Origin: Chitinophagaceae bacterium
GTDB taxonomy: Bacteria; Bacteroidota; Bacteroidia; Chitinophagales; Chitinophagaceae
NCBI GenBank assembly: GCA_024103425.1
Contig: JAGFIS010000034.1
Location: 1-64,000 of the forward strand
Direction: 5' to 3'
DNA length: 64,000 nt
This document shows positions 10,511 to 26,993 of the stretch, one piece after another; within the stretch, counting starts at the first letter, position 1, and each line of letters begins with the position of its first letter. Under the pieces are notes generated by a model. That model ran no database searches, was not told the origin of the DNA, and saw only the letters and a list, made by a program, of their open reading frames with translations. The translations under genes were made by a program, and so were the position numbers.

Positions 10511-10581
10511 CAGGTGTTCTTTTGGAACTGAAAGTTAAGAGAAAAATTTTACAACCTGTTGAGAATCATTACAAGAAATCA

Positions 10582-11480
10582 GGCTTTGTGCGCGAGGTTC
10601 TCCTCCTGAGGAGGAGTCAGAGGTGGTGAACTCCATGTTGTTCTCAGGATTAGCTGCGCTGATCCTTTACGCATTGACCTAGCCCAAAACCCTCCACGCC
10701 ACTATCGTGTCGTGTGATCTTTTCATTCCAACTCCTTAGTGAAGCGAGCTTCCCATTAGCGGGCCCTGTGCGCGAAGTTCTCCTCCTGAGGAGGAGTCAG
10801 AGGTGGTGAACTCCATGTTGTGCCCAGGATTAGCTGCGCTGATCCTTTACGCATTGGTCTAGCCCAAAACCCTCCACGCCACTATCGTGTCGTGTGGTCT
10901 TTTCATTCTATCCCCTTTGTGAAGCAAGCTTCCCATTAGCGGGCCCTGGGCGCGAAGTTCTCCTCCTGAGGAGGAGTCAGAGGTGGTGAATTCCATGTTG
11001 TTCTCAGGATTAGCTGTGCTGATCCTTTACGCATTGGCCTTACCCAAAGCCCCTGCACGCCACTATCGTGTCGTGTGGTCTTTTCATTCTAACTCCTTAG
11101 TGAAGCGGGCTTCCCACATTATCAGGCTTTGTGCGCGAAGTTCTCCTCCTGAGGAGGAGTCAGAGGTGGTGAATTCCATGTTGTTCTCAGGATTAGCTGT
11201 GCTGATCCTTTACGCATTGGCCTTACCCAAAGCCCTGCACGCCACTATCGTGTCGTGTGGTCTTTTCATTCCAACTCCTTAGTGAAGCGGGCTTCCCACA
11301 TTATCAGGCTTTGTGCGCGAGGTTCTCCTCCTGAGGAGGAGTCAGAGGTGGTGAATTCCATGTTGTTCTCAGGATTAGCTGTGCTGATCCTTTACGCATT
11401 GGTCTTACCCAAAGCCCTGCACGCCACTATCGTGTCGTGTGATCTTTTCATTCCAACTCCTTAGTGAAGCGAGCTTCCCA
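10582..11480. repeat. five tandem copies of a 180-183 bp repeat
   Basis: The landmark cgcgaggttc/cgcgaagttc recurs at 10591, 10771, 10951, 11134 and 11316, giving periods of 180, 180, 183 and 182. Each unit contains the hairpin ctcctcc-tga-ggaggag, then agtcagaggtggtgaa, ccatgttgt, gctgatcctttacgcattg, cgccactatcgtgtcgtgtg and gtgaagc. Copies 1-3 end in ttagcgggcc and copies 4-5 begin with tatcaggctt, so the array has two subtypes. Short frames of 69-99 codons cross the units but are just the repeat translated (PPEEESEVVNSM...) and carry no gene features. The array ends right beside the proposed left end of the integrated element. Confidence 0.9.
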
Positions 11481-11494
11481 CAGAGTTGAAATGA

Positions 11495-11527
11495 AAAGCC
11501 CCATTCGCTTTTGGCGAACAGGGCTTT
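11495..11527 (-). terminator. displaced tRNA-Arg terminator (probable)
   Basis: Arms aaagccc (11495-11501) and gggcttt (11521-11527) enclose an inner ttcgc/gcgaa stem with a five-base loop. Read leftward it lies directly after ggggtcac, the 3' end of a tRNA acceptor stem. I infer it is the original terminator of the tRNA-Arg gene now at 28470-28546, separated from it by the inserted element. Confidence 0.5.
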
Positions 11528-11535
11528 GTGACCCC
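11528..11535. other. putative attL core gtgacccc
   Basis: Eight bases identical to 28472-28479 inside the tRNA-Arg acceptor end. A short core is normal for serine recombinases. The match alone could be chance; its place immediately next to a terminator hairpin supports it. Confidence 0.45.
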
Positions 11536-11733
11536 AAAGCTACAGTTTTCAAACCAGTTAATGCAGGATTTTAAGCGGATTTACGAGTTAAAGGCAATTG
11601 TGCCGGTTAATTTATTGCAGGGTGTTAAGGGCGAACTATACGGAAGATGTGCTATCTAACAGAATTATACTCCCCAACCAACATCAAACCAATAAAGAAT
11701 AGTAATTCTAAGGTGTGCGGTAATCTTACTCAC

Positions 11734-11958
11734 CTAATTGTACAGCTTAGAAAGAACAGTTTCCTTCTCTAAACCTAAGTAAAGGCAAAGCTCATCAATG
11801 GTAACAACTTGATGTTGCTGCTTACTGAAGTGCTGCTTTATCTTTTTAATAATTTCTCTACCCCAACGTTCACTCCTGCCAGTGAGTATCTGAACATCTT
11901 TGGGATAAACACAAACTCGTTCCATGGGCTTAATATTCAATTTTGATACACTATCCAT
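11734..11958 (-). CDS. small Bacteroidota hypothetical protein, HTH-like C-terminus
   Basis: Protein of 74 aa, or 63 aa from the second Met (start codon 11923-11925), which is the more usual start for this kind of protein because the conserved part begins at MERVCVYPKD. The pattern YPKDVQILTGRSERWGREIIKKIK followed by VTIDELCLYLGLE is one I associate with short proteins near integrases in Bacteroidota, possibly a helix-turn-helix accessory protein; I cannot name a family. It is the first gene inside the left end of the element and faces the end. No operon partner is seen. Confidence 0.6.
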   Translation of the reverse strand: MDSVSKLNIKPMERVCVYPKDVQILTGRSERWGREIIKKIKQHFSKQQHQVVTIDELCLYLGLEKETVLSKLYN

Positions 11959-12144
11959 ACCTCATCCATGCTTTATTTATTAATCATCCACTACAAAAAT
12001 ACTAAATACTAAACAGGAATAATAAGCGTCTCACGGATAAAAATGTTCTTATCGGCATAAACGGAAGTGCTTGTTTGTAAAGGGTTTCAGAGCTTAATAA
12101 TTTCGGGTTGTTATTCATTCGTAACCTATTAAATTCTTATTACA

Positions 12145-12900
12145 ATGGCACAACAAAAAGGCATTATCAAACTGGATGGTACTATTGGGGGTATCACCTT
12201 TTATAAATCTGAAGACGGCTACCTTGCCCGTGAAAAGGGCGGTGTTTCTGCTGAAAGAATTGCCAATGACCCCAACTTTGAACGGACTCGTGAAAACGGT
12301 GCTGAATTCGGACGGGCTGGAAAGGCTGGTAAGATTTTGAGGACTTCTTTAAGAGCGTTACTTCAAAATGCGTCCGACAGCCGAATGGTTAGCCGGTTGA
12401 CGCAACGCATGGTTAAAGTGATTCAGGCTGATGCTACAAATCCTCGTGGACAAAGAAACGTGATTGATGGCGAAGCTGAATTGCTGCAAGGGTTTGAGTT
12501 CAACATTAATGGAAAGCTTGGTACTACTCTTTACGCTCCTTACACTACCAGCATTGACCGTGTAACCGGTGCTTTAGAAGCTGTTATCCCATCTTACGTC
12601 CCTGCAAACATGATTGCCGCTCCAAGTGGTACTACACATTACAAAATCATTTCTTCCGGCGTTGAGATTGATTTTGAAAATGAAACCTTCGTTGCAGACA
12701 GTAACAGTTCTACTATTCTGCCTTGGGATAATGTTGCAAGTACTGCATTAACGCTTACCAACAGCGTTACTCCTGCAAGCACTCACCCACTTTTCCTCGC
12801 ATTAGGAATTGAGTTTTATCAGGAAGTGAATGGTACTATGTACCCTTTGAAAAACGGTGCGTTTAACGCTCTTGCGCTTGTTCTGGTGAATGGTGTGTAG
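12145..12900 (+). CDS. Bacteroidota hypothetical cargo protein
   Basis: Protein of 251 aa starting MAQQKGIIKLDGTIGGITFYK. It resembles a family of Bacteroidota proteins that begin with this sort of KGxIKxxGTxGGxxFYK motif and carry a basic, helix-rich segment (about 45-95: ENGAEFGRAGKAGKILRTSL), then a beta-rich C-terminal half. No signal peptide, membrane segment or catalytic motif is seen. Function is unknown. It has its own terminator at 12929-12956 and no neighbour on the same strand closer than 100 bases, so it is a single-gene unit. It may be a phage- or conjugative-element-derived structural protein, but this is a guess. Confidence 0.75.
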   Translation: MAQQKGIIKLDGTIGGITFYKSEDGYLAREKGGVSAERIANDPNFERTRENGAEFGRAGKAGKILRTSLRALLQNASDSRMVSRLTQRMVKVIQADATNPRGQRNVIDGEAELLQGFEFNINGKLGTTLYAPYTTSIDRVTGALEAVIPSYVPANMIAAPSGTTHYKIISSGVEIDFENETFVADSNSSTILPWDNVASTALTLTNSVTPASTHPLFLALGIEFYQEVNGTMYPLKNGAFNALALVLVNGV

Positions 12901-12928
12901 GAAAAACTTTTCTTTCAGTTAAACGATT

Positions 12929-12956
12929 AGCCCTGTAGTCTTGCAGGGCTTTTTTG
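12929..12956 (+). terminator. rho-independent terminator
   Basis: Arms agccctg (12929-12935) and cagggct (12944-12950) with an eight-base loop, followed by a run of T (12950-12955). It ends the 12145-12900 gene. Confidence 0.85.
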
Positions 12957-13026
12957 TTTTCAGGATGTGAATATTTTGAATGAGGTTTGATAATTTAGTC
13001 TCTGTATGTTTGTCAAAAAGCATATT

Positions 13027-13239
13027 ATGAATTTCAAAGTAACAGACTACGATAATGAGAATCCTACTTTACATTGTCCTAAGTGCGACTGTGAATACAC
13101 ACATTTGCAGAAAGTAAACGAAGAAACATTTGAAGACCGTCCGGGTGTAACTCTAACCTTCAAATGTGAAGAAGGTCATGAATTTACTTACTCACTCATG
13201 AATCACAAAGGCTATACACAATCGTTCCTCATCAGTTAA
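13027..13239 (+). CDS. small zinc-ribbon-like protein
   Basis: Protein of 70 aa from the ATG at 13027; the frame is open from an ATG at 13006, but that codon lies inside a TATGTTTG sequence that matches the Bacteroidota -7 box (13005-13012), so I prefer the downstream start. It has a CPKC pair near the N-terminus (HCPKCDCEY) and a second Cys followed by His (FKCEEGHEF), the spacing of a small metal-binding ribbon. No other domain fits in the length. It sits between the cargo gene and the structured non-coding block. Function unknown; a nucleic-acid-binding or regulatory role is possible. Confidence 0.6.
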   Translation: MNFKVTDYDNENPTLHCPKCDCEYTHLQKVNEETFEDRPGVTLTFKCEEGHEFTYSLMNHKGYTQSFLIS

Positions 13240-13472
13240 TCAGGAATGCCCTAAAAGGGCAAATCTGAAACAAACCGGAAACCGGAAGGATAGCAATGAG
13301 CGAAAAACCCGGATGAAAGGCTATACACGGAGACGCCAGGACGATAAGTGAAGGCAACCGGGCGGCGACGCAAATGCCTGCTGAAAAACGCCGAAGGAAT
13401 GGAAGAACGGCGAACCGAACAATAAGGCTCAATGGCTGGACGGCAATGGCTGATGATACGAAGCTGCTTTTT
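13240..13472. other. non-coding, hairpin-rich lead-in to structured block
   Basis: No convincing gene. Small hairpins are visible: tgccct-aaa-agggca at about 13247-13261, aggca...tgcct around 13352-13378, and cgccg...cggcg around 13389-13413. The phrase aaaggctatacac occurs at about 13207 (end of the preceding gene) and again at about 13316. The base use is richer in G and C than in the flanking genes. Confidence 0.5.
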
Positions 13473-13651
13473 CATAATAAAAAATTTATGTGCTTTTCAC
13501 ACGAAGGCGGCGCAGTCCAACCAAAAGGAAACGGAATAAATGATGGCTTTGTGCGTTGGCTTTGTGTTTATGCCGTAGTCTTTTGGTTGGCTGCTTTGGG
13601 CATTGTGCGTTAGCCCGCCGAAGTATCTTGCACATAAAATTTTTTATTATG
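13473..13651. repeat. structured element A (long nested inverted repeat)
   Basis: An outer AT-rich stem pairs 13473-13493 (cataataaaaaattt...) with 13630-13651, 21 bp with one bulged base. Inside are a ggcgg/ccgcc stem (13506-13510 with 13615-13619) and a perfect 11-bp stem ccaaccaaaag (13517-13527) with cttttggttgg (13580-13590). The latter continues through an internal loop gaa/agt into acggaataa (13531-13539) paired with ttatgccgt (13568-13576) with one A-G mismatch. The same order of stems and the same loop bases recur in element A' (14216-14439) with paired sequence changes. It may act as RNA or as single-stranded DNA; no known RNA family is recognised. Confidence 0.75.
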
Positions 13652-13741
13652 GTAGCGAAGTAATCAGACAAGCGGGTTTGAGCTGTCCTGATTTTTCATC
13701 CTGTTCATAATTCGTTGCACCTTTTGTAAGTCTGTTGCACC

Positions 13742-14164
13742 CTACCTTCTCAAATGGCGGTAGATGATGGCTCTTTTGAGGTCTGATAACAATGCAGCCT
13801 GGATGAGATATTGCTTTTCTAACTCCTCGTATGACCTTATCTTTTTTAAGTCATCTTCAAAATCGGTTTGCCTTAATCTTAAACGGTCGGCTGATTCAGC
13901 AACCAGCTTTTTAAAATCATTGATGCGAATAAACTCAATGACGGAACCGACAAGGATTTGATGAAATGCTTTAGAAATCCAAAGACCATATAAAAGAGAC
14001 TTGTAAAATTCCTTTTGCTTTTCATCCTGGCATAAAATGGCAAAGCAATTCGGGCTAGGTTTTTCAAGTGGTTTACCACTGTTTAAACCCTTACAGAGTG
14101 CAAAGACGGTAAATGCCGGGTAATGCTTTTTAGAATTGTACTGCTGAACTTTTGGGATAACCAT
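13742..14164 (-). CDS. DUF6943-like hypothetical protein
   Basis: Predicted protein of 140 aa from the ATG at 14162-14164. The frame extends upstream to 14320 but that extra 52-codon stretch translates the A-rich stem of structured element A' and is not protein-like. The core pattern ALCKGLNSGKPLEKPSPNCF, then FYKSLLYGLWISKAFH and LVGSVIEFIRINDF, matches my memory of the Bacteroidota family of unknown function DUF6943. The C-terminal 50 residues are a charged helix. It lies exactly between the two related structured elements A and A', pointing left. Function unknown; often found on mobile elements. Confidence 0.65.
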   Translation of the reverse strand: MVIPKVQQYNSKKHYPAFTVFALCKGLNSGKPLEKPSPNCFAILCQDEKQKEFYKSLLYGLWISKAFHQILVGSVIEFIRINDFKKLVAESADRLRLRQTDFEDDLKKIRSYEELEKQYLIQAALLSDLKRAIIYRHLRR

Positions 14165-14215
14165 GGCTATTATTTTTGCGGTTACTTCCCTATTGCCCTG
14201 AAAAAAAATATTTTT

Positions 14216-14439
14216 CAAAAGAAAAAAGGGAAAAAAAGAAAGCAGTTGAAAAAGGCGGCGTGGCAAAAAAGCCAAAAGGAAACGGAATAAGTGCCGAAGG
14301 CTGGCAAGGCACATAAACAAAGCCGGCGAAGCCGACCTATTGCCTTGCCATTATGCCGTAGTCTTTTGGCTTTTTTTGTGTAGAGCCTTGTGGTAGCCGC
14401 CTACCTTTGCGAACTTTTTTTTCCTTCTTTTTCCTTTTG
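14216..14439. repeat. structured element A' (covarying relative of A)
   Basis: An outer purine-rich arm (14216-14250) faces a pyrimidine-rich arm (14405-14439), followed by a ggcgg/ccgcc stem. Then a perfect 14-bp stem pairs 14265-14278 (aaaaaagccaaaag) with 14363-14376, the gaa/agt internal loop recurs, and acggaataa (14282-14290) pairs with ttatgccgt (14351-14359), all as in element A. The apical part is different: tggcaaggca pairs perfectly with tgccttgcca and encloses a cggc-gaa-gccg hairpin. In the shared stem, A/T, C/G and C/G pairs of A are G/C, A/T and A/T pairs here, so pairing is kept while sequence changed. Confidence 0.78.
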
Positions 14440-14530
14440 TGATAAATAAATGGAACTTCTAACTGAGCACGGCTACTAAGTACCATTGGATTGGTTGTTT
14501 TAATTGTGCGTTGGATTGGGACAAAATGCC
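14440..14530. other. short non-coding spacer
   Basis: Nothing certain is seen. It contains attgtgcgttgg, a phrase that recurs with small changes at about 13550, 13603, 14568 and 14721, apparently a shared part of the structured elements. Confidence 0.4.
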
Positions 14531-14955
14531 GCAGGGCTATAAAAGCATACCTTTTTAATTGTGCGCTGGCTTCCCCGAAGGGGTGCAAATGTGGTGAGCC
14601 GGAAAGCCAGGGCAAATGCTTGGGGCAGAAAGCGGGTGCGGCTTGTGCATGGCGGCATTGGTAAATTTATTACGACCAATGCCGTTGAAGCAGAGGTTAA
14701 GCCGCACCCTGCTTTATGCGTTGTGCGTTGGCTTGCCCTGGCTGACGGAGAAACCACTTTTGCAGTGCGGTGCTGAGGCTGGTGCAAGTAAACGAAGCGG
14801 TAATGAAGTGAAGGATAGTGAAATGAATGCAGCCCCGATAAAAATCGGGATAAACTCCGCTGCATGAATGGAACGCCTGAACGGAATGGTAGCGAAGTGC
14901 TTGCATCCTGCCGGAAGCACATTGCAGTGAAATATCAATGCTTTTATAGCCCTGC
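14531..14955. repeat. structured element B, 425-base nested hairpin
   Basis: A perfect 18-bp outer stem joins 14531-14548 (gcagggctataaaagcat) and 14938-14955. Nested inside are agccagggcaa (14605-14615) with 14733-14743, gggtgcggctt (14634-14644) with 14699-14709, and ggcattggt (14654-14662) with 14675-14683, all perfect. To the right are a cccgat-aaa-atcggg hairpin enclosed by atgcagc/gctgcat, and gtgctt/aagcac (about 14897-14919). Short frames on both strands cross this block, but none has protein-like composition; they are by-products of the paired structure. Confidence 0.75.
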
Positions 14956-15016
14956 ACCGCTGAAATGGGTGGGTGGGTGCGTGGGAAGAAGCGTAGGGAA
15001 AAAATGCGGCTTCTGA

Positions 15017-15068
15017 ACCCCGAAAAATATTAGCTTAGGATTTGTGTGCAGGGATATTTTTTCGGGGT
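15017..15068. repeat. hairpin C
   Basis: Arm accccgaaaaatat (15017-15030) pairs with 15054-15068, which has one extra T. The loop is 23 bases. It lies between structured elements B and D. Confidence 0.65.
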
Positions 15069-15084
15069 GAAGGCTATGCCATTG

Positions 15085-15196
15085 GCTACTTAACATAATG
15101 TGCTTATGTGACAGCCTGTGCGGCTGGATGCTTGCATAAGCGATAGCAAAAGGCTGTGCGAAGCGAACACATAAGACCACATTATGTTTAAGTAGC
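15085..15196. repeat. structured element D, ~26-bp stem
   Basis: Left arm 15085-15110 (gctacttaacataatgtg then cttatgtg) pairs with right arm 15168-15196, interrupted only by one extra base and one three-base bulge. The loop contains cagcc-tgtgc-ggctg, an acagcc/ggctgt alternative pair, and a tgcgaagcg mini-hairpin. Same style as A, A' and B: long AT-rich outer stem, GC-rich small hairpins inside. Confidence 0.72.
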
Positions 15197-15200
15197 TTCC

Positions 15201-15372
15201 GCCGTTTTACATACTGGCATAAGCGAAGTGGTGGTGGTGGTTGGAACGAAGCGTCTATTTGCTGCTATGCAAAGGGTTGGCTTGGCTCTTTGGCTGTGCA
15301 GCGAAGCGAAACAGACAATGTGCCAAGTGGATTGGCTGCATAGCCGCAAATAGTATGACAGTTGTAAACGGC
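15201..15372. repeat. structured element E
   Basis: An outer gccgttttac (15201-15210) pairs with gtaaacggc (15364-15372) with one bulge. Inside, ctatttgctgctatgca (15255-15271) pairs with 15337-15353 with a single mismatch, and cttggc pairs with gccaag (about 15281-15286 and 15322-15327). The loop carries gcgaagc. Confidence 0.68.
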
Positions 15373-15389
15373 GGCAATGGCATAGAAGG

Positions 15390-15423
15390 CAGGCGAAGCG
15401 TTGGGTTTGTGCGATTGCGCCTG
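15390..15423. repeat. hairpin F near operon end
   Basis: Arms caggcg (15390-15395) and cgcctg (15418-15423) enclose a gcgaagcg core. It lies about 30 bases past the stop of the leftward operon, so it could serve as its terminator, but no T-run follows on that strand. Confidence 0.45.
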
Positions 15424-15452
15424 ACTAAAGCCTCATTTTTTGTGGGCGGGTG

Positions 15453-15749
15453 TTAAGCTAATGCTTGTTGAGAAAGCCTTGCCTTAAAAGAATTGGCAAT
15501 AACAGCTTTTATAAATGGACTTGCGTTTATGAAAGTAGTTCTACTCTTAACTTCATCCAATGAAAAGAATAAGGTTAGTTTTGCAAAACACTCATCAGCA
15601 AAAGAATTAGAAACTGTTTCTACATCTGTAAAATCAAAAACAATCTTATCCGATGATTGTTTGATAGCCTCTACAATTTCACTACGAACTTCAGCTCCGT
15701 GTACCCTTGTTCCTAAGTGGATACCGATATTTTTGAAATGAATGTTCAT
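15453..15749 (-). CDS. STAS-like DUF4325 protein
   Basis: Predicted 98-aa cytosolic protein of the STAS-like DUF4325 type. The ATG at 15747-15749 fits the domain start (MNIHFKNIG); the frame is open further up to 15821, where an ATG would overlap the upstream gene by 14 bases, but that extension lacks domain character. The signature is IVFDFTDVETVSNSFADECFAKL: a strand ending in acidic residues, then the Ser-x-x-Phe-Ala-Asp/Glu loop typical of STAS-like proteins. Such proteins often partner a GHKL ATPase in a partner-switch. Here the ATPase is the gene just upstream. It is the last gene of the eight-gene operon. A role in controlling the upstream restriction genes is inferred. Confidence 0.75.
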   Translation of the reverse strand: MNIHFKNIGIHLGTRVHGAEVRSEIVEAIKQSSDKIVFDFTDVETVSNSFADECFAKLTLFFSLDEVKSRTTFINASPFIKAVIANSFKARLSQQALA

Positions 15750-15807
15750 AAAATTGAAGTTTGAGTTTTGCAGATAACGCCCAAATATACGCAAAGAGTG
15801 TGCGAAG

Positions 15808-16770
15808 TTACCACAAATCATCGTTAATTCCTTGCATCTGGTCTAAAAAGAATTGGTAATCTTCCGGCAAACTATGTCCCTCCGGCATAATTCGCTTATA
15901 ATCAACGGGAATGTTTGTATTAATCCTCATGAAAACAAAGGTTCCATGCCAGAACTCACCTTTATTTACCTGCTTTATTCCTTCCAATAAATGAGAAAAA
16001 TAATGCCCGGAATAGATAAGCATTTCTCCTCCATTTTCCTTTATAAACTCTGATGTGGCGAATAAACCAAAGCCCAATCCTTCTCCATTGGTAACACCCT
16101 TAGCCGTACAAATTTGAACTGCATCCATTTCCTTCAAATGTTTGTACTTAGATTTTTCCGGTGTTGTCAACGCCTTATGAATACCTACTCCGGTGTCGCA
16201 AATAATTAAGCGAATTTCATTTGATTTCGGAAATAATTGAGCACAACACCATCCTTTGCCCTCATAAACATTCGGATAGTCAGAATGGTTAATAACATTG
16301 TCCATAATTTCGTACATACAGTAATCCAGCATTTGTTGTACTTCAATTGCTACTTCTACATTTGCAATTAATACCCTACGAATATTTTCAAAAACATTTT
16401 TGATTGTATCCTTATTGTACGGCGTTATCTCTGTAAACTTTCCTGCACTTGGTCTTCTTTCAAACTTTTCTTCATAATCCAATTCCAAAAGTTTAAAGAA
16501 ATTCACCCGACTGGCATATTGGCTTTTGGCATCTTCATCATCACAATGTACTCCACCCGTTACTGTAATTCCGTCGCTTCTGAGTTTTATCAATGTTGTA
16601 GTAACCAGCATCAATAAATCAGAATACAGCATTTTGTAATAAGTGTTCAGGTAAACTTGAAAATCTACCGTATCACCAACCGTTGCGGTAAATGCAGGAC
16701 TTAAATCAGCTACTAATTGAGGATGAGAAGTATATCGCTTGAAATCTATATTTATGTTGATAATAGCCAT
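15808..16770 (-). CDS. GHKL/HATPase_c ATP-binding protein
   Basis: Predicted 320-aa soluble ATPase or kinase of the GHKL fold. Visible boxes: N box EIMDNVINHS (Glu154, Asn158), G1 box DTGVG (Asp192-Gly196) and G2 box GEGLG (229-233) followed by FGLFATSEF. It lacks a histidine-kinase phospho-acceptor His region, so it looks more like an anti-sigma-type (RsbW/SpoIIAB-like) protein with a ~140-residue N-terminal domain I do not recognise. Its start codon shares one base with the stop of hsdR (TAATG), so the two are translated together. The next gene is STAS-like. The pair inside a type I R-M operon is unusual. Confidence 0.85.
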   Translation of the reverse strand: MAIININIDFKRYTSHPQLVADLSPAFTATVGDTVDFQVYLNTYYKMLYSDLLMLVTTTLIKLRSDGITVTGGVHCDDEDAKSQYASRVNFFKLLELDYEEKFERRPSAGKFTEITPYNKDTIKNVFENIRRVLIANVEVAIEVQQMLDYCMYEIMDNVINHSDYPNVYEGKGWCCAQLFPKSNEIRLIICDTGVGIHKALTTPEKSKYKHLKEMDAVQICTAKGVTNGEGLGFGLFATSEFIKENGGEMLIYSGHYFSHLLEGIKQVNKGEFWHGTFVFMRINTNIPVDYKRIMPEGHSLPEDYQFFLDQMQGINDDLW

Positions 16771-19700
16771 TATTTGATTTCTTCTTTTGCCCAGGTATCT
16801 GCTAACATTTCTGCCTGCTTTAATACAGTCTGTACTGCTTTTTCCTGCTTATCAGGTGGGTAGCCATATTGTCTTAGTATTTTGCGAACGATGACTCGTA
16901 ATTTGGCTCTTACGTTTTCTTTTATTTGCCAGTCAATGGTAGTATTTGCTTTTACCTTATCAACCAATTCTCTTGCAATTTCTCTAAGCTGCTCATCTTC
17001 CATTATTTGCTTAGCCGCATCGTTATCACAGATAGCATCGTAAAAAGCTATTTCGTCTTTTGTAAGGTTTAAAGCAGCTTCTCTCTCATCGGTCTGTCTT
17101 AGGTCTTTTGCCAAACCTATCAGCTCATTCAATATTTCAGCACTGGTCAATAATTGGTTTTGGTACTTTTTAATAGCGTTTTCCAGCATTTCTGAAAACT
17201 TCTTACTCAGTATCAGGTTGTGTGTAGAGCGGCTTTTCAATTCATCGTTCAGCAATTTTTTAAGCAATTCCAAAGCAAGGTTCTTATGTTGCATACCTCT
17301 AACTTCTTGTAAAAACTCATCACTTAAAATGGAAATATCCGGCTTCTTAATTCCGGCAGCATTAAAAATATCTACCACCTCGTTACTAACTATTGCTTTG
17401 TCTACCATTTGGCGAATGGCAGTTTCTATTTCTTCATCCGTTTTTCCGTTTTGGTTTCCGTTGAATTTTGAGAGGCGTGCTTTTACTATCTGAAAGAAAG
17501 CTACCTCTAATGCAATATCAGCAGCTTCTTGTGTGCTTTTACAAAGGGCGAAGGCTTTTGACAATAAACTTACTTCCTTATTAAAACGCTCCTTGCCATT
17601 TTCTACAGAAAGGATATGTTCTTCGGAAGTAAGGATGATAGATAATTTCTCTGCAACAGGTGCTGTGAAGTATGGGGTATAATCATAACCATTCATGATT
17701 TGCCGCACCACTTCCAGCTTTTCCATCATTATGGCAATAGCATCATCTATATCAAAGGTCGGTTTTCCCTTCCCGCCGCTTTCGGTATAAGTTGAAAGTG
17801 CTTTCTTTAAATCCTGTGCTATACCAATATAATCTACTATCAAGCCTCCAGGTTTATCTAAATAAACCCTATTCACCCTTGCAATTGCCTGCATCAGACT
17901 GTGTCCTTTCATGGGTTTATCTACATACAAAGTGTGTAAGGAGGGAGCATCAAAACCTGTAAGCCACATATCCCTTACAAGTACCAGTTTCAATTCATCT
18001 TTAGGTTCTTTCAATCTTTCACCGATGGCTTTATTCCTTTCCTTACTTCTTAGATGAGGTTGAAAAGTAGCGGGGTCGGACGAAGACCCTGTCATAACAA
18101 CTTTAATTGCTCCTTCATTATCATCTTTACTGTGCCAATGCGGTTTTAGTTTAATTATCTCCTCATACAACAAAACACAAATTCTGCGGCTCATACAAAC
18201 TATCATTCCTTTACCTTCAAATACTTCCTGTCTTTCTTCAAAATGATTAACAATATCGGCAGCTACATTTTTTATCCTATTCGCATTTCCTACAATTGCT
18301 TCCAGCCTTGCCCATTTGGCTTTTGCCTTTTGCTTATCAGTTAACTCTTTGTCTTCTGTTATTTCTTCAAACTCTTCATCCAGCAACTCCTTTGCTTCTG
18401 GGTCTATATTCACTTTTGCCAAACGGCTTTCATAGTATATGCGAACCGTTGCTCCATCTTCTACTGCCTGTTGTATATCGTACACATCAATGTAGTCGCC
18501 AAAAACAGTTTTTGTATTTCTATCGGTGAGCTCTACGGGTGTACCGGTAAAACCAATGAAGGTTGCAGCAGGCAAAGCATCCCGCATGTATTTGGCAAAC
18601 CCGTAGGTAGTTCTTGCGCCTATTTCTTTTCCTTCTTCGTCTTTAATAATCCTGTTCTTTGCTTCAAAGCCATACTGTGTGCGGTGCGCCTCATCTGCAA
18701 TCACCACAATGTTTTTACGGTCACTAAGCAATGGGAAAATATCTTGCCCTTCTTCGGGAAAAAATTTCTGAACCGTTGTGAAAACTACACCACCTGCTGC
18801 AACTTGCAGTTTGTCTTTTAGATCATCTCTGTTTTGTGCCTGTGTGGGAGCCTGCCTTAATAATTGCCGACAAGCTGCGAAAGTATCAAACAACTGCTGG
18901 TCAAGGTCGTTCCTGTCTGTAATGACAACGATGGTAGGATTGTTTAGTGCCTGAATGATTTTTCCGGTATAAAAAACCATTGACAATGATTTACCACTTC
19001 CTTGTGTATGCCATACGATACCGCCCTTTTGTGTAGCATCTTTATCACCAAACCCCGTAGCTTGTACGGTGCTATCTACTGCTTTATTTACTGCGTAGTA
19101 TTGGTGATAGGCAGCAATTTTCTTGATGGTTTCGATAGTGATTATTTGCGTTACCGGGTCTTCTTTTTTGTCTTTTTCAAAAACAATAAAATAGCGGAGA
19201 TAATCCAGCAAAGTATTTTTATTGAGCAAGCCTTCTATTAAAACCAACAATTCGCTTTCTAAATGCGAAGCATTTGTTTTACCATCCTTCGTTTTCCATT
19301 TTGAATAGCGGCTAAAAGATGCACTGATACTACCTGCTTTTGCTTCAAAACCATCGCTGGCTACCATAAATGCATTGTAGGGAAATAGAGATGGGACGGC
19401 AGTTTTGTAATTATTGAGTTGGGTATAGGCTTTTTCCACTGTTGCTTTGGCATCGGCTGGGTTTTTTAATTCAATGATGACCAAGGGAATGCCGTTAATG
19501 AATAAAATAATATCGGGGCGTTTGTGCTGTGTGCCTTCTGTAATGGTAAATTGGTTGACGCAGACGTAGTTGTTGTTTTCCGGATTTTGATAATCTATCA
19601 ATAAAACTTTATCACCTCTGGTTTCGCCATTGAGTGTATAGGTTACATCCACACCTTCGGTTAGCATGATGTGAAAATCTTCATTTGCCTGCATCATGTC

Positions 19701-19943
19701 GGGGCTGCCAATACGCAATACTTTATTGATGGCTTCTTCTTGCGCCGATATGGGAATTTGTTCATTGATAACAGCAATATGCTGCCGCAGCCGTTCTTTC
19801 AGTATCACATCATTATAGCTATCTCGTTCCGGGAACTCCCCATCAGATGCCAACATAGGACCGTACATATAATCCCAACCGATAGATTGTAAATGCTCAA
19901 TGGCAAGTTGTTCTATGCTATCTTCAGATATTATTTCGTTCAT
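16770..19943 (-). CDS. hsdR: type I restriction enzyme subunit R
   Basis: Motor and nuclease subunit of a type I restriction-modification enzyme, 1057 aa, usual length. The PD-(D/E)xK nuclease is near the N-terminus (Asp144 in KRPDIILF, Glu158-Leu-Lys160 in IIELK). The helicase motor follows: Walker A GSGKS (315-319), DEAH box (417-420), FTGTP motif, and the motif VI segment [10 protein letters not shown]. The C-terminal third is helical and charged, as expected for contact with the methylase. All key residues are present, so it should be active. It overlaps the DUF262 gene by 4 bases (ATGA) and the GHKL gene by one base. Confidence 0.96.
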
Positions 19944-21718
19944 GTTTTTTGGATTAAATTCTTTTTGATTTTCTCTAAATCAACATCTAAAATTTTCTCT
20001 ACCTGATCACAAAACCACATCCATCGCCCATTCATAGCATCAATATTCCATTCTTTATTGAATTTGTTGCTGTTGTAATCGTTTACAATGTTTTGAGTGA
20101 TTTTAAATGAGCTGATTTTTTTATCGTCGGCATCTTCCAAACCTGTACCATCGTAGGATTGAAGTTTAATATCAAAGGCGTAATTTCTTGCATCCAGGTT
20201 TTTGCTTCCACTAAGCAACGTAAGGTTAGCTCCGGTATTTATCCATTCGTCAAGGTCTTTGATATCGTTGGCAAATTGCCATTCTTCTATTTTATTAAAT
20301 GCCCTTGGAAGGATATGCTCCGTCTGAATATTTCTATCTCCCATTGAGTAATAGGGTGGATTATCCTGCTGTTCATATTCAATCATAAACAGTAGCGGTT
20401 TACACCATGCTTCAAAATAAATGTCTCCATTCAGGTTATTGATGGCTCTTTGTATAACGTCATCATTCAATTGTTTGTTCCATTCATTTTCTATATCCGC
20501 TAATGGTTTGTGGTCTTTTAAATAGCCAATGAGATTAAAAGAAGTTTGTTTGATTTTTGATAATGTATTTCCTGCCAGCCAGTTTAAATAATAATATCTT
20601 CTGAACTTGACTAAAAACTCCTCGAACTGTGGATATTTTACATACAACGCCGTAGTAACTATGGTGCGCCAATACACACTCCATCTTAGATAATACAATG
20701 AATACATTATCGGACTTTCAGAGTTGTAAACGTCTATTTTATAGGTATGCACAAAGTCTTTAAATTCTTTTATTACTTCGTTGGCATATCTTGCATCAAA
20801 AAGATTTCGCAATTCATCGTATAATGAACGTTCAGGGTTTTTTGCCAATAAATAATACTCATACATCACAAATAGATTGTTCATGCTTTCCTCTGTATCC
20901 GTGGCTATGTTTTCACAGCTTTTCCAGTCGTCCATAAACTGGTCTTCGTGTTGCTTTCTTACTTCGGCATCTTCTTCATACTGTTTATGGATTTTACCGA
21001 TTAAAAAGCTTTTGATTAGGTCTGCATTGGAAAGGTCGAGCCCTCTGTCGTTCAATACCTGAAACAGCTTAATGGCAAAACTTACCGATTGGCAATCAAT
21101 GCGGATGATTTTTACACTGTTGAACAGGTAGTTGATAAACTGTCCCGTTTCTTCTTCGCCCAATTCTTCCATTTTTTCCCGAAAGAAGGCGGCGGTATTC
21201 ATAAACTTGAACTTGGGTGCTTGCTCTATGCGTAAGTCTTTTTTGTAGGGTCTTTTATTATCTGTTGCCCTTCCTTCTTTAATAACTAAATTCTGAAAAT
21301 CGCTTTCATGGTTGGAATGTGTTCTGAGCCGTAACCGTTCGAACCTGTCATTTAAACGGATTGAAGATTTTATGGCAGAAACATCAATGGCAAAAGGGTC
21401 TTTCTCTAAAATAGCTGCGTTAATATCCGGGTACATATCCCGGCATACGCAAAGCAGAATTAGAAGTGTAGTTAGTCGTTGCTGCCCATCTACTATGTCC
21501 AGATAATTAGAGGCTTCCTCCGGCTTGGCAGTAATAATAGAACCTAAAAAATAATTGGGCTCGTATTGCTGAGCTTCCCGCAAATCGTCCCAGAGTTTGC
21601 TCAACTGGTCTTCGCCCCAGGAGTAAGGACGCTGGTAACGGGGTATTTGATACAGGGCATCTTTATTACCAAACAGTTCGCCAATGGTTAGGCTTTGTGG
21701 TTTAAATATATCTTCCAT
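19940..21718 (-). CDS. DUF262/DUF1524 GmrSD-like nuclease
   Basis: 592-aa fusion with an N-terminal DUF262 domain (YQRPYSW at 28-34 and DGQQR at 77-81, the ParB-like nucleotide-binding signature) and a C-terminal DUF1524 His-Asn-type nuclease domain (His468 in TEHILPR, Asn498 in GANLTLL, Asn512). This is the architecture of GmrS-GmrD, SspE and BrxU, which cut modified or foreign DNA using NTP. The motifs appear complete. It lies inside the type I operon, 11 bases after the GIY-YIG gene and overlapping hsdR by 4 bases, so it must be co-expressed with the R-M enzyme. Whether it restricts modified phage DNA here is inferred from the family. Confidence 0.88.
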
Positions 21719-21729
21719 TTAGTTTTTCT

Positions 21730-22152
21730 TTAAAAATCAGTATTCCATCGTGGCAGTCCTTTATGCTGCCTAAAATAGTCTTGAAGACAGTAAGCCTCGG
21801 CATAAGCCGGTATATCTTCCACTTCTCCTGCCTCAAAGGTTACATACCACTTCACTATTATTTCTTTAATACCCTCTACCATCATTTTAGAAGCCCATGC
21901 CTTTTTTCTTGGCGCATCAAACTGCTTTCCGTTTACTATCCTGTCGCACATGCCACCTTTTCTTAACTGAAAGCTACCATCCTGGCATACCCAACCGGAA
22001 CTTCCGATATAGATTATTTCATGCGTAGCTGCGTTATAAACAATATAAATCCCTCCTTTGTCCGTAGGCGCATTACATTTTTTTGAAAGCACCTCTTCAG
22101 TTTTAAAAACAAACTCGCCCCTTGTTTTGTATTTATTTGTCAGTGCTTCCAT
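21730..22152 (-). CDS. GIY-YIG domain protein
   Basis: 140-aa protein with a GIY-YIG nuclease fold: GGIYIVYN, then YIGSSG, an Arg in LRKGGMCDR, and a late Glu in the helix YAEAYCLQDYF. It is little more than the domain plus short extensions, with no DNA-binding module visible. It is placed between hsdS (8 bases) and the DUF262 gene (11 bases) in the same operon. GIY-YIG proteins cut or nick DNA; many small ones next to restriction genes have unproven roles. It could be a nuclease subunit or a structural partner of the DUF262 protein. Confidence 0.78.
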   Translation of the reverse strand: MEALTNKYKTRGEFVFKTEEVLSKKCNAPTDKGGIYIVYNAATHEIIYIGSSGWVCQDGSFQLRKGGMCDRIVNGKQFDAPRKKAWASKMMVEGIKEIIVKWYVTFEAGEVEDIPAYAEAYCLQDYFRQHKGLPRWNTDF

Positions 22153-22160
22153 TATCTACT

Positions 22161-23393
22161 TCATTTTACCCTCACCGTTCCGCTCATCAACTGTGGCAAT
22201 AAACTATCCCGCAATTGGGTAAGGGTTTTTATTTGCTTTTTATTTTGATTTTGCTTTTTAAATAATGGCTTTATTTTTTTATTGAAACTTATTACTTCGT
22301 TTTCATTAGGCATTTTAAATTCCATTTGGTTCAGTAGTGCTTTGTAATCCAAATTTTTTATTCCTGAACTACCATTTTCTAAATTGAAAAATTCTCCTTG
22401 ATTGTATAAAAATTGCAAATAGCAATAAAGAAAAAATGAATAATCTTTCCTTTTTATTCTAATCATTCTACAGAAATTAGAAAAGACTATTGGATAATCA
22501 AATAGGTCTTGAACATCGTCGTTTATATAGCATACTCTTCCTGTAGATTGGTTGTCTGTTCCTCCTGATATTTCAATAATTAAATCACCTTCTTTTGGTT
22601 GTATATTTTCAAACTTTTTTTCCTTTACAAAACGAATAGGCGTTTTTAATGGTAATCCGGTAATCAAGTCTGCAATATCAGTTCCTCTAATACAGTTAAC
22701 TGCTTTATTAAAATCGTTTTCTAAATTTTCTTTACCCCATTCCCCTCCTACAGTTTCTAAAATCCATTTACTAAAGCTTCCCATTTCCCAATCCTCCTTT
22801 GCATCTTCTACAAACCATTTTCTAAACAACGTTTCAGCCAATTGTTCTAAAGTTTGGTTTTGGTGGTGCAGCAGGTCTATTTTGGCATCTAAGCGGCTGA
22901 GTATGGTGGCTATGGCTTTTTGGGTGGGGAGTGGGGGGAGAGTGATGTCAACTTCACTCAATAAAGATGTATTAATAGATGGCATTGTTGCTCCAACCGC
23001 AATCATCCTTATCGTTTCTTTAAAACTGAATTGACTAAAGTAGTAAGACAAATATCTGGAATAAATAATACCCTCATTAACTCTTACTCTTAACAACCTG
23101 CCCGAAAACATCCATCCATCTTCCTGTTCAGAAATGTATGCACATCTGTCAACTGAACCAACTCTACTAAATACGATGTCCCCTTTTTTAAGAGTGTATT
23201 TTTTTAATCTGTTTTTATCTTCATCTCCAACTAACGGTAAGTTTTTATGCAGAACTTTATTATCTCCTAAATGTTCTACAGTTATAATTGGCGTGCCTGT
23301 TGGCTTGTAATCACTCATATGTAACTGACTACCGAATGGACCTGTTTGTACGTTCGCCACATCTCCTAACTTATATTCTTTCCAATCGTTCAT
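22161..23393 (-). CDS. hsdS: type I restriction enzyme specificity subunit S
   Basis: DNA-recognition subunit, 410 aa, usual length. Two target recognition domains are seen (about 1-150 and 210-365), each followed by a helical conserved region (about 160-195 with HHQNQTLEQLAETLFRKWF, and about 375-405 with KKQIKTLTQLRDSLLPQLMSG). The first domain begins with the usual WKEYKLGDVANVQTGPFGS pattern. Start codon shares one base with the stop of hsdM (TAATG). The recognised DNA site cannot be told from sequence. Confidence 0.95.
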   Translation of the reverse strand: MNDWKEYKLGDVANVQTGPFGSQLHMSDYKPTGTPIITVEHLGDNKVLHKNLPLVGDEDKNRLKKYTLKKGDIVFSRVGSVDRCAYISEQEDGWMFSGRLLRVRVNEGIIYSRYLSYYFSQFSFKETIRMIAVGATMPSINTSLLSEVDITLPPLPTQKAIATILSRLDAKIDLLHHQNQTLEQLAETLFRKWFVEDAKEDWEMGSFSKWILETVGGEWGKENLENDFNKAVNCIRGTDIADLITGLPLKTPIRFVKEKKFENIQPKEGDLIIEISGGTDNQSTGRVCYINDDVQDLFDYPIVFSNFCRMIRIKRKDYSFFLYCYLQFLYNQGEFFNLENGSSGIKNLDYKALLNQMEFKMPNENEVISFNKKIKPLFKKQNQNKKQIKTLTQLRDSLLPQLMSGTVRVK

Positions 23394-24937
23394 TATGTTA
23401 TTATTATTTGCTCTAAGCTTTGGTCAATTAATTTATTCAATTTTGCTTCCTCTTTCATTTGTTCTTTTAATGTGGCTTTGAGTGTGGTAAAGCGTTCTTT
23501 AAAATCAAAATCTTCCTCATCGTCGGGCAAGCCTATGTACCTGCCGGGTGTAAGCACATAATCCAATGCTTCTATCTCTGCAAGGGTGGCAGTTTTGCAA
23601 AAGCCGGGTATGTCTTTATATGCTTTTTTACTTGTTCGCCAATTGTGGAAAGTGTCTGCCAATAATTGTATATCGTCATTGCTAAGCTCCCGGTTTCGGC
23701 GGTTAATGAGGTGCCCCATATTGCGGGCATCTATAAACAACACTTCGCCGTTGCGTTCTTTTTTGCCACGGCTAAAAAACCAAAGGCAGGCGGGTATTTG
23801 TGTGTTTAAAAACAATTTGGTGGGCAGGTTTACAATGCAGTCTATACGCCCGTCTTTCACCAGTGCTTTGCGTATCTCGCCCTCATTGCTGCTTTTGGTG
23901 CTGAGGCTGCCTTTTGCCAGTACAATGCCGCCTTTACCGTTGGGCGCAAGGTGGTAAATGAAATGTTGCAGCCAGGCAAAGTTGGCATTGCCTGCGGGCG
24001 GTATGCCGTACTTCCATCTGCCATCTTTGGTAAGCAGGTCGCCGCTCCAGTCGCTGTCGTTAAACGGTGGGTTGGCAATAATGTAATCCGCTTTTAGGTC
24101 GGGATGGGCATCTTTTAAAAAACTGCCTTCGGTATTCCATTTTATGTGTTCGCTGTTAATGCCTCTAATGGCAAGGTTCATCTTAGCCAGCCGCCAGGTA
24201 GTTTGGTTGCTTTCCTGCCCGTAAATATTTATGTCGTCTATCTTTCCCTGATGGCTGAGAATAAATTCTTCGCTTTGTACAAACATGCCGCCGCTGCCGC
24301 AGCAGGGGTCGTACACACGCCCTTTGTAGGGTTCCAGCATTTGCACCAATAGCTGCACCACGCCTTTTGGGGTGTAGAACTGTCCGCCTTTTCTGCCTTC
24401 GGCAAGGGCAAACTGCCCGAGAAAATATTCGTACACTTTACCCAGCACATCCTTTGCCCGGCTCGCTTTATCGCCAATGGTAATGTTGCTGAACTGGTCT
24501 ATCAATCCACCCAGAGATGTTTTATCCAAATTTTCCCTTGCATATTGCTTGGGCAATACATTTTTAAGCGATTTGTTTTCCTTTTCTATGGCATCCATTG
24601 CATCATCAACCGTTTTGCCAATAGTGGGCTTTTTTGCTTCTGCCATTAAGTGTGTCCACCGGGCGGTTGGTGGTACGTAAAACACATTTTCAGCAAGGCA
24701 TTCGTCTTTGAACTCTGCCAAAAGGGTTTCGTCATTCTCAAAATCTGCACCATTGTATTGGATGAAGTTATTGTATAACTCTTCAAACGCATCGCTGATG
24801 TATTTCAAGAAAATCAAGCCCAAGACAATGTGCTTGTATTCGGCAGCATCTATGTTTTTGCGTAGCTTATCGGCAGCCAGCCAAAGTGTTTTTTCTAAAG
24901 GCAGTTCCTGTTCTTTTGTTTTTCTTGCTTTTGCCAA
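23393..24937 (-). CDS. hsdM: type I restriction enzyme methylase subunit M
   Basis: N6-adenine methyltransferase subunit, 514 aa, usual length. It has the helical N-terminal domain (HsdM_N-like, about 12-150), then the SAM-binding motif DPCCGSGG (210-217) and the catalytic NPPF (289-292), which marks adenine-N6 methylation. With HsdS it modifies host DNA and with HsdR it restricts unmodified DNA. It starts 10 bases after the unknown protein gene at 24948, so that gene belongs to the same operon. Confidence 0.96.
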
Positions 24938-24947
24938 TGTTTTATTT

Positions 24948-25820
24948 TTAAATTAGTATGTCTTTAAATTTTTCGTCTAATGCATCCCAGTCCATACCTT
25001 TCAAAAGGGCTTCTTCCACTGAAAACTCGGCTTTGGATTGAGCGGTGTGTAATTTCTTGCGGATGCCTTCCACTCTCATAGAGATATTACCTCCGCCTTC
25101 TGAAGTATAATCTACCAGACTGTTTATTAGCTTGCTGTCTGGATTGATTTCAAGATTACTATCGCCATCGCTGTTGAGTTCTACGGTAGTTTTATGGGAA
25201 TTGGTATCCTCGTATAATTCTTTAAGGTTGATTTGCAGATTACGACTGATGTTAGCCATGTTAGGCGAAACCATTTCAAAGGAAAGCTGTTTAATCTTCT
25301 TGTCATAATGACTAACCATTTTCCAGAACTCCCGCTTGTCAAAGATGGGTTCTAAATAAAATGAAAGGCTTTCGTTGCGAAGCTGCTTATCAATCGTTTC
25401 TTCTAAAATGCGGCTAACAGTATCTGTTTCCTTAAAAGCCTGCGTGTAGGACTGAATGGCGATTTTTTGAACGTCCGGTGCATTATTAAACGCAATGAGA
25501 ATATTGGGGTAATCTTCTACGGTTGTTTCTGTAAAATCTTTATTGGTGATTCGCTTCTGCCTTTTGACTGCTACTTTGAAATAAAAGCGGTTATTTTTCT
25601 GGTACACCAACTTGCTTTCAATCTCTGATTTGTTGGACTTGAAATGAAAGTTTTGGTTGCTAAGGATATTTTCAAGAATGGTATTTTTCGCGGCGCGAAC
25701 TTCATCGGGATTCTGATAAGGACTATCTGTTCTAAGCTGCACCGCTTTATCCACAAGCAGTTGATAGCGATAGATATCAAAGGTGGCATTCTTGCCGGGA
25801 GTGATGGCAATATCCGTCAT
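24948..25820 (-). CDS. unknown protein leading the R-M operon
   Basis: 290-aa protein that I do not recognise. It is charged and mostly soluble, with a Lys-rich middle part (about 70-95, [15 protein letters not shown]), Ser/Thr/Asn-rich stretches and a C-terminal helix ([16 protein letters not shown]). No signal peptide, membrane segment, or nuclease or ATPase motif is visible. Its position is the informative point: it is the first gene of the operon, 10 bases before hsdM, directly behind the shared promoter/operator. It is therefore made with the R-M enzyme and could be a regulator, an inhibitor of self-restriction or an added defence protein. Function unknown. Confidence 0.75.
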
Positions 25821-25841
25821 AATTCTTCAGTTAAATGGTTT

Positions 25842-25849
25842 CAAAAGTA
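25842..25849 (-). promoter_or_regulatory. -7 box of the R-M operon promoter
   Basis: TACTTTTG read leftward matches the Bacteroidota TAnnTTTG -7 element. It lies about 20-30 bases upstream of the start codon at 25818-25820. The operator palindrome at 25867-25881 sits 17 bases further upstream, over the expected -33 region. No clear TTG -33 is seen. Confidence 0.55.
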
Positions 25850-25866
25850 ATGTTTATTTTCAAAAA

Positions 25867-25881
25867 ACCTTACGGTAAGGT
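25867..25881. promoter_or_regulatory. palindromic operator between divergent promoters
   Basis: ACCTTAC-G-GTAAGGT is a perfect 7-bp-arm palindrome around one central base. It lies between the leftward R-M -7 box and the rightward MerR-like gene -7 box, so one bound dimer could control both. MerR-type regulators normally bind such dyads near the promoter spacer. Binding by the neighbouring gene product is inferred. Confidence 0.65.
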
Positions 25882-25892
25882 ATAATTCTTTG

Positions 25893-25900
25893 TATCTTTG
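25893..25900 (+). promoter_or_regulatory. -7 box of the MerR-like gene
   Basis: TATCTTTG matches TAnnTTTG and ends 17 bases before the ATG at 25918, predicting a short leader. The operator palindrome ends 11 bases upstream of it. Confidence 0.6.
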
Positions 25901-25917
25901 AAGAAAGAAATTTGTAA

Positions 25918-26751
25918 ATGGCAACCCTCAAGACTGCATTAATCAAATCGGGCAAACTGGTAGAGGCATTTACGAATGAAATGTTTGAGGAAAGCTTTGA
26001 AAATTACTTTAAGCAAAAGGGCAAAAACAAGGTTTCGCAAGTACTGAACAATACAGAACGCAATATTAAACTCTCGTCTGTAACCTACCGTCAATTAAAT
26101 AGCTGGGAGCAGCAGGGTTTATTAACTACGAGCAGAGAAGATGAAAGAAGCTGGCGCAGGTTTAGTATTATGGATGCGCTGTGGGTAAAGATTATTCAGG
26201 AGCTAAGAGAATTTGGGCTAAGCAGTGAACAAATAAAAACAGCAAAAGAAAGTCTGAGTTATGGCAAGGAACGCTTTTCGGTGGAGTTGCCGATACTGGA
26301 ATTTTATACAGCGTTTGCTATTGGCAGTAAAATGCCGGTGTTGCTTTTGATTTTTAAAGATGGTGTAGCTGTTCCTACCAATACTACACAATACAGGATA
26401 GCACAGCAGTTGACCGATTTGGAAAATCACCTTCAAATCAATTTGAACCAGTTGTTGCAATCGTTGTTTCCTGATGTTGACTTAGCGCCTAATAGGAAGT
26501 TGGAACTATTGCCCGACATGGATGAAATGGAATTGCTGGCTTTCCTGCGCATTGGAAATTATGAGAAAGTGGAAATTCAGTACAAGGGTGGCAGAATGCA
26601 CGTTTTAGAAGGCATGGAACGAATAGAAGCCGGAAAGCTGGTAATGGATGCCATCAGGGAACATAAGTATCAAAAAATTGAGGTGGTGGTGGAAGAAGGG
26701 AAAACAGTTTCCCTCCGCCGCACTGTAAAAAAGAAAATAAAAAAGGGATAA
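25918..26751 (+). CDS. MerR-like transcriptional regulator
   Basis: 277-aa DNA-binding protein. The part at about 50-110 (SSVTYRQLNSWEQQGLL, then RRFSIMDALWVKIIQELREFGLS) has the MerR winged helix-turn-helix pattern: recognition helix, YRQL/W turn, R-R-F-S wing and the long helix with LREFGLS. The long C-terminal half is not a typical metal-binding MerR tail; it ends in a Lys-rich segment. It is divergent from the eight-gene R-M operon across a 97-base gap that contains a palindrome, so it very likely regulates that operon and itself. The ligand or signal is unknown. Confidence 0.8.
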   Translation: MATLKTALIKSGKLVEAFTNEMFEESFENYFKQKGKNKVSQVLNNTERNIKLSSVTYRQLNSWEQQGLLTTSREDERSWRRFSIMDALWVKIIQELREFGLSSEQIKTAKESLSYGKERFSVELPILEFYTAFAIGSKMPVLLLIFKDGVAVPTNTTQYRIAQQLTDLENHLQINLNQLLQSLFPDVDLAPNRKLELLPDMDEMELLAFLRIGNYEKVEIQYKGGRMHVLEGMERIEAGKLVMDAIREHKYQKIEVVVEEGKTVSLRRTVKKKIKKG

Positions 26752-26822
26752 TGCACCCTAAGAATTGCCTATTGCAGAAATGACCGGACAATGCCCCGGA
26801 GTGGATGCGGAAGCTATTCAAA

Positions 26823-26993
26823 ATGCTCAACTTAGAGAAGTGTAAAAAAATTTTAGAAAAAAATGGGAAAAAGGTCACTGATGAGGAAGTAAAAAAAATC
26901 AGAGAACTGATGTACAAAATCGGCAATCTGGACTATTTATTAACTACTGAAAGAAAGAAGGGATGCAAACAGTTGTCATCTACACCCGTGTAA
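26823..26993 (+). CDS. small protein preceding the recombinase
   Basis: 56-aa protein from the ATG at 26823 (MLNLEKCKKIL); a longer frame starts at 26805. It is Lys-rich and helical, with the pattern NGKKVTDEEVKKIRELMYKIGNLDY. I have seen such short proteins before recombinase genes in Bacteroidota, but have no family name or function for it. Its 3' end overlaps the recombinase start by 31 bases, so the pair is translated from one transcript. It could be a directionality or accessory factor. Confidence 0.55.
   Translation: MLNLEKCKKILEKNGKKVTDEEVKKIRELMYKIGNLDYLLTTERKKGCKQLSSTPV

Follow-up and report, generated by a model that had tools for sequence, protein, structure and literature searches.

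Fold-back elements of Bacteroidota mobile DNA as probable single-stranded-DNA promoters comparable to Frpo of the F plasmid

Results and Discussion

Organisation of the locus

The DNA analysed here (the window) is a stretch of 64,000 nucleotides from a Chitinophagaceae bacterium. The two related fold-back elements under study, A (13473-13651, + strand) and A' (14216-14439, + strand), belong to a module at 11734-15413 which recurs in other genomes. Besides the two elements, the module comprises a small helix-turn-helix-like gene at its left end (11734-11958, - strand), a conserved 251-aa companion gene (12145-12900, + strand), an unannotated conserved 74-aa gene which we call orf74 (13251-13475, - strand), a DUF6943 gene (13742-14164, - strand) and a conserved noncoding region of nested inverted repeats to the right of A' (14752-15413, + strand). 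The companion gene is always found on the opposite strand, to the left of the first copy of the element; its product is beta-sandwich-like, with moderate model confidence (AF2 pLDDT 68) and Foldseek matches to generic beta-sandwiches. The noncoding region is kept in six relatives, in places reaches 95% conservation between genomes, and is possibly an oriT or another single-stranded DNA structure. Copy A had at first seemed to lack a gene, but orf74 starts 34 nt downstream of the A model. In 14 aligned copies its frame and its terminal LPF-stop are kept, substitutions fall on codon positions in the order 3 > 1 > 2, and the protein, which follows the pattern M[KQ]KQLRI...PSGxRxLSALPF, has no match in Pfam, NCBIfam or PHROGs.

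The module sits at one end of an apparent integrative island of about 17 kb (11525-28478, with inferred boundaries). A large serine recombinase gene (26963-28507) overlaps and reads into tRNA-Arg, and the cargo of the island includes type I restriction-modification, GmrSD and STAS/HATPase genes. The sequence TGACCCC occurs at both island ends, after a hairpin. A direct repeat of tRNA-Arg was considered as the island end and set aside, as just the short TGACCCC match was found. Just outside the left end of the island there is a tandem array (10580-11480) in which a unit of roughly 180 bp is repeated about five times.

Architecture and folding of elements A and A'

Element A is supported by a covariance model (92.3 bits), by DNA folding and by covariation, and A' by the covariance model (77.2 bits) and DNA folding. 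The core of A consists of a 5' arm at 13521-13539 (CCAAAAGGAAACGGAATAA), the template arm, and a 3' arm at 13568-13586 (TTATGCCGTAGTCTTTTGG), the non-template strand of the folded promoter proposed below; the corresponding arms of A' are at 14272-14290 and 14351-14369 (non-template), all on the + strand. The original prediction had listed a set of inner stems and an internal loop shared by both elements, and all of these were found where it placed them: GGCGG/CCGCC, CCAAAAG/CTTTTGG, the GAA/AGT internal loop and ACGGAATAA/TTATGCCGT. Each element also has a near-invariant unpaired A in a bubble, A13577 in A and A14360 in A'. A' has two further features, a side hairpin (CCGAAGG) and a stem that is extended and ends in GGC-GAA-GCC. 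At least three base pairs of the middle stem had been said to differ in both partners, and three such pairs are indeed present at its base, where A-T in A is replaced by G-C in A' and C-G by A-T twice. As to the outer AT-rich stem, which had been described as common to the two, each element does have one, a perfect 15-bp pair in A (13473-13487/13637-13651) and arms with 88% pairing in A' (14222-14237/14416-14431), but the two are not clearly homologous. The claim that the elements flank a DUF6943-like gene as direct repeats holds, since they lie 751 nt apart in the same orientation with a gene between them that matches PF22105 (E 1.6e-40).

On both strands, and whether RNA or DNA energies are used, the two elements have folds much more stable than those of dinucleotide shuffles; the z-scores against shuffled sequence are -5.9 (A) and -4.2 (A') for RNA folding, and -6.2 and -6.3 for DNA folding. 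A search of the whole window against Rfam 15, at gathering and at permissive thresholds, gave nothing credible apart from two tRNAs elsewhere in the window. The genome that contains the window has exactly two copies, A and A'. The heptamer TTGTGCG was considered as a boundary or nick motif and rejected; it recurs in loops and marks no sharp boundary.

Distribution of the family and selection on base pairing

A pattern search in relatives, together with inspection, yielded about 20 more copies, in which the core (AAGGAAACGGAATAA..TTATGCCGTAGTCTT) is invariant and the flanks vary in sequence yet pair with each other. From 22 copies we built a covariance model, R1, which matched 85 of 296 genomes of the same family (Chitinophagaceae), with up to 7 copies per genome. 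In a sample of the phylum it matched 27 of 395 genomes, and these belong without exception to the same class. When a 26-base pattern was searched over 85,000 species, at least 119 loci were found, whose titles are almost all Bacteroidota; the exceptions among the matches listed are a Chlorobiota bin, an unclassified bacterium and a Parvularcula bin. Matches in virus collections were few. In total, hundreds of copies exist, and they covary, so that a lack of further covarying copies, named beforehand as an outcome that would count against the original prediction, did not occur. We found no account of such elements in Bacteroidota in the open-access literature searched. The family is not universal, since Bacteroidota plasmids that bear a RadC/JAB gene (in Pontibacter, Pedobacter, Adhaeribacter, Bacteroides and Chryseobacterium) have no copies detectable with R1, and no comparable hairpin was seen upstream of RadC/JAB on those plasmids.

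Covariation was assessed in an alignment of 112 copies, many of which are related, so that the counts are not independent. Double changes were observed at 13 of 19 pairs, and 91% of cells pair. The number of double-change cells was 228, against 62 in shuffles, and the covariation score was 0.281, against 0.100 in shuffled alignments; 0 of 500 shuffles scored as high, and sliding controls reached at most 0.106. The earlier proposal that pairing is under selection is thus borne out by compensatory change well beyond the two copies on which it was based. The inner helix (CGG/CCG, an A.G mismatch and ATAA/TTAT) is nearly unchanging across the 112 copies, which indicates that sequence as well as pairing is constrained, and in the bubble an A is nearly always opposed to an A. 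Some hairpin loops are G-rich (GGGTGTGGGATGGGTGGG), for example at L041 8594-8681 and in similar class-A loops, and a G-quadruplex is possible there on the hairpin strand.

Genes downstream of the elements

In nearly every case the strand that forms the hairpin is the template strand of the next gene, which lies beyond the 5' side of the hairpin. In the first set of loci, the gene was on the opposite strand for RadC/JAB (22/22), SSB (26/26), DUF932 (27/27), DUF6943 (15/15), DUF6876 (10/10) and ParB (5/5), and for the MobB relaxase in 9 of 10. Among named species the counts were 51/52 for SSB, 38/38 for ParB and 33/33 for DUF932. The elements face a fixed way, 40-160 nt before the start codon, at a distance specific to the class of gene: 70-71 nt for ParB in 21 of 21 copies from named species, 51-54 nt for RadC in most, and 52-54 nt for orf74. 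For 21 of 134 copies in the named loci, no ORF of 70 aa or longer lies within 260 nt. The genes so placed are those typical of leading regions (SSB, ParB, DUF932, RadC/JAB, ArdC, DUF6876 and DUF6943). Mobile elements carry two to three copies, each before a different gene, and the copies lie inside the mobile elements, not at their ends, and point one way throughout. The suggestion that the DUF6943 gene plus one element forms a unit therefore stands in the sense of a proposed promoter plus its gene, although each copy, A included, precedes an opposite-strand gene of its own. On the sense strand, a GCTTTCTTTTTTCCC(T)nCTTTT tract is conserved 20-60 nt downstream of many copies, in the interval between hairpin and gene start; it is missing from the RadC and ParB classes.

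Many Chitinophagaceae loci (L047, L081, L090 and L105) read element, SSB, DUF932, element, RadC, and then MobC, relaxase and coupling protein. By contrast, in five loci of Flavobacteriia (L130, L171, L197, L256 and L264) the relaxase gene is oriented oppositely relative to the hairpin strand, and this conflicts with a simple leading-region geometry. The element is commoner in genomes with a PF03432 relaxase (27/52) than in those without (12-15/67); these counts are approximate, the genomes without being in part reconstructed from incomplete listings, with p about 1e-4 to 1e-3. No PF03432 relaxase was found in the genome of the window itself, so that the island would need a helper if its elements act in single-stranded DNA. 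A search for a Mob_Pre relaxase in the same genome gave no match, and control genomes were silent too.

Evidence for folded single-stranded DNA

In the inner helix-1 pairs, 918 of 984 cells are Watson-Crick, 10 are G-T, 3 are A-C and 53 are other. Wobble thus amounts to about 1% in the element stems, against 8.4% G-U in tRNA stems of the same loci. Of 38 three-base loops closed as C(loop)G on the hairpin strand, 29 have the form GNA, against 0 of 38 on the complementary strand, counts which are not independent because copies share descent; in distant control sequence, GNA makes up about 7% of such loops. In DNA, GNA loops on G-C stems are known to form mini-hairpins of extraordinary stability, GCGAAGC having a Tm of 78 C (PMC4686876). 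In 108 of 110 copies, DNA parameters gave the hairpin strand a higher stability than the complementary one. The near absence of wobble pairs, the occurrence of GNA triloops on one strand and the greater stability of that strand together point to elements that act as folded single-stranded DNA, not as RNA. The original prediction had left the choice between a functional RNA and single-stranded DNA; it is supported, and our data favour the latter.

A proposed promoter in the folded strand

The strand of the mobile element that forms the hairpin, which is imperfect and has a conserved mismatch bubble, is the template of the gene just past the hairpin's 5' side. We infer that transcription takes place from the single-stranded DNA, and consider it likely that A and A' are single-stranded-DNA promoters which are functional analogues of Frpo of the F plasmid. 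In the folded form the 3' arm reads TTATGCCGTAGTCTTTTGG, whereas the non-template sequence of the duplex at the same place is TTATTCCGTTTCCTTTTGG. The bubble A of a 'TA' is present in the folded form of 104 of 110 copies by a strict pattern, and of 111 of 112 in the alignment, against 0 of 110 in the duplex form. The A of 'TA' would correspond to the base captured at -11 by the primary sigma factor. In Bacteroidota this factor reads TAnnTTTG at -7, and no -33 element could be identified in Flavobacterium (PMC7366714). The folded arm has TA-N4-TTTG, a partial match; the exact TAnnTTTG was found in the hairpin arm of none of the copies examined, and no -33 motif was evident. TAnnTTTG is rare around the elements, with 1 occurrence in the 100 nt between element and gene (15.7 in shuffles), 0 inside the element (6.7) and 13 upstream of it (26.6). 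This depletion fits genes that are silent in duplex DNA, although other constraints could also deplete the motif.

In the proposed switch, the element would enter the recipient as single-stranded DNA, in which the 5' arm would be the template and the 3' arm (TTATGCCGTAGTCTTTTGG) would take the place of the non-template strand. Exposed by the bubble, the near-invariant A of 'TA' would be available to the primary sigma factor, and RNA polymerase would start at the hairpin and continue past its base into the gene. Synthesis of the second strand would give a duplex whose non-template sequence (TTATTCCGTTTCCTTTTGG) lacks the bubble A, and the promoter would therefore be off. For the two elements of the window this predicts expression of orf74 from A and of DUF6943 from A'. 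The transcript begun at the hairpin may also prime synthesis of the complementary strand, as has been proposed for Frpo.

Comparison with Frpo

In the F plasmid, Frpo is located before ssb, and its folding in the transferred strand creates a promoter (PMC9849209; PMC7690428; PMC11541004); single-stranded promoters of the Frpo/ssi kind are described for F-like and IncI plasmids (Masai and Arai 1997, as cited in PMC9849209; PMC11541004). The Bacteroidota elements resemble them in being fold-back structures and in occurring in several copies per element. They also stand immediately before ssb and other leading genes, with the folded strand as template; that the promoter forms only in the single strand is described for Frpo/ssi and proposed here. 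The leading region of F has its SSB, ParB-like and DUF932 genes directed toward traM, and the Chitinophagaceae loci named above share this geometry. The same three gene families occur behind the Bacteroidota elements. R1 gave no match to the leading regions of F and R100 at E values up to 10, so that the Bacteroidota family is to be regarded as an analogue and not a homologue of Frpo. It also differs from Frpo in size (a core of about 60-90 nt, against 328 bp), in having no -10/-35 of the E. coli type, in being almost wholly confined to Bacteroidota, whose sigma factor reads TAnnTTTG, and in occurring also on islands without a relaxase. Since the known single-stranded promoters of F-like and related plasmids have been defined by sequence and by E. 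coli -10/-35 boxes, their counterparts in Bacteroidota, a dominant phylum of gut, soil and water, would be missed.

Single-strand origins (sso) of rolling-circle plasmids are likewise hairpins in single-stranded DNA, thought to recruit RNA polymerase, and they prime replication. The copies described here differ in being tied to gene starts, sso being set apart by its description and not by its sequence.

Alternative explanations

The elements could be single-strand origins of the sso or ssi type, whose folded strand recruits RNA polymerase or primase solely for priming of the second strand, so that the proximity of genes would be incidental. Such an origin would be expected to leave the same single-stranded-DNA signature, some copies have no gene immediately beyond them, the relaxase polarity in the five Flavobacteriia loci does not fit gene expression, and Frpo itself has been described as both promoter and primer site (PMC7690428). 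One priming site should suffice, however, yet there are two to three copies per mobile element, each before a different gene, and the class-specific distances to the starts of ParB, RadC and orf74 are fixed; we regard this explanation as unlikely. A cis-acting RNA leader or attenuator in the 5' UTR, or a small RNA, would agree with the fixed position and orientation upstream of start codons and with the strong folding as RNA. Against it, G-U pairs are nearly absent in either sense, the strand of mRNA sense is the less stable one in most copies and the GNA triloops are on the other strand, the -7 motif is depleted upstream of the element too, and Rfam gave no match, all of which leave an RNA function with a small probability.

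The original prediction had also suggested a test for strand-specific recombination at the stems. An attC-like site or an end of the IS200/IS605 type, with gene and element as a mobile unit, would account for the two copies which flank a gene as direct repeats, and for the position of the module inside an integrative island. Many unrelated genes are preceded by the element at fixed start-codon distances, however, and the copies are internal and always point the same way. The island, moreover, has a serine recombinase and a tRNA site of its own. Strand-specific recombination is thus unsupported, and we consider a recombination or transposition site very improbable.

Implications and the predicted role of DUF6943

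Returning to a single-stranded-DNA promoter, a wider reading, which we hold to be slightly better than an even chance, is that promoters of this kind occur across Bacteroidota, that their conserved bubble provides the critical -10 A only when folded, and that they turn on genes for anti-restriction and establishment during the few minutes until the second strand is synthesised. They would also mark relaxase-less defence islands, that of the window included, as travellers in single-stranded form that need a helper; islands without conjugation genes would carry such promoters because they move as single-stranded DNA. If this is true, the family can serve to locate leading regions and early-expressed genes of Bacteroidota by sequence, and many unnamed families (DUF6943, DUF6876, orf74, RadC/JAB and DUF932) are predicted to be establishment or anti-defence genes. 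A switch that is off in duplex and on in the single strand also becomes testable with a short oligonucleotide.

A search for DUF6943 on PLSDB plasmids gave no match. Its AF2 model (pLDDT 92.7) consists of a beta domain and a 59-residue helix. In Foldseek and VIA comparisons the model matched 7eew (Z 8.2), the S subunit of PacII (7.7), 1yf2 (7.4) and 5ybb (6.8), and most of the ten best VIA rows, in which the whole model was spanned, are S subunits or related restriction-modification folds. The best VIA match has a Z of 8.2, which is close to background, and an rmsd of 3.7 over 133 residues. The product (140 aa) differs from HsdS in being only one half, with 7-15% identity, and no gene for a catalytic partner lies directly beside it. 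The predicted fold resembles one target-recognition domain plus the long helix of HsdS, that is, half a subunit. From this model, DUF6943 probably mimics HsdS and so blocks type I restriction, which makes it a candidate anti-restriction protein; a half-HsdS expressed early would be a natural product of a leading region.
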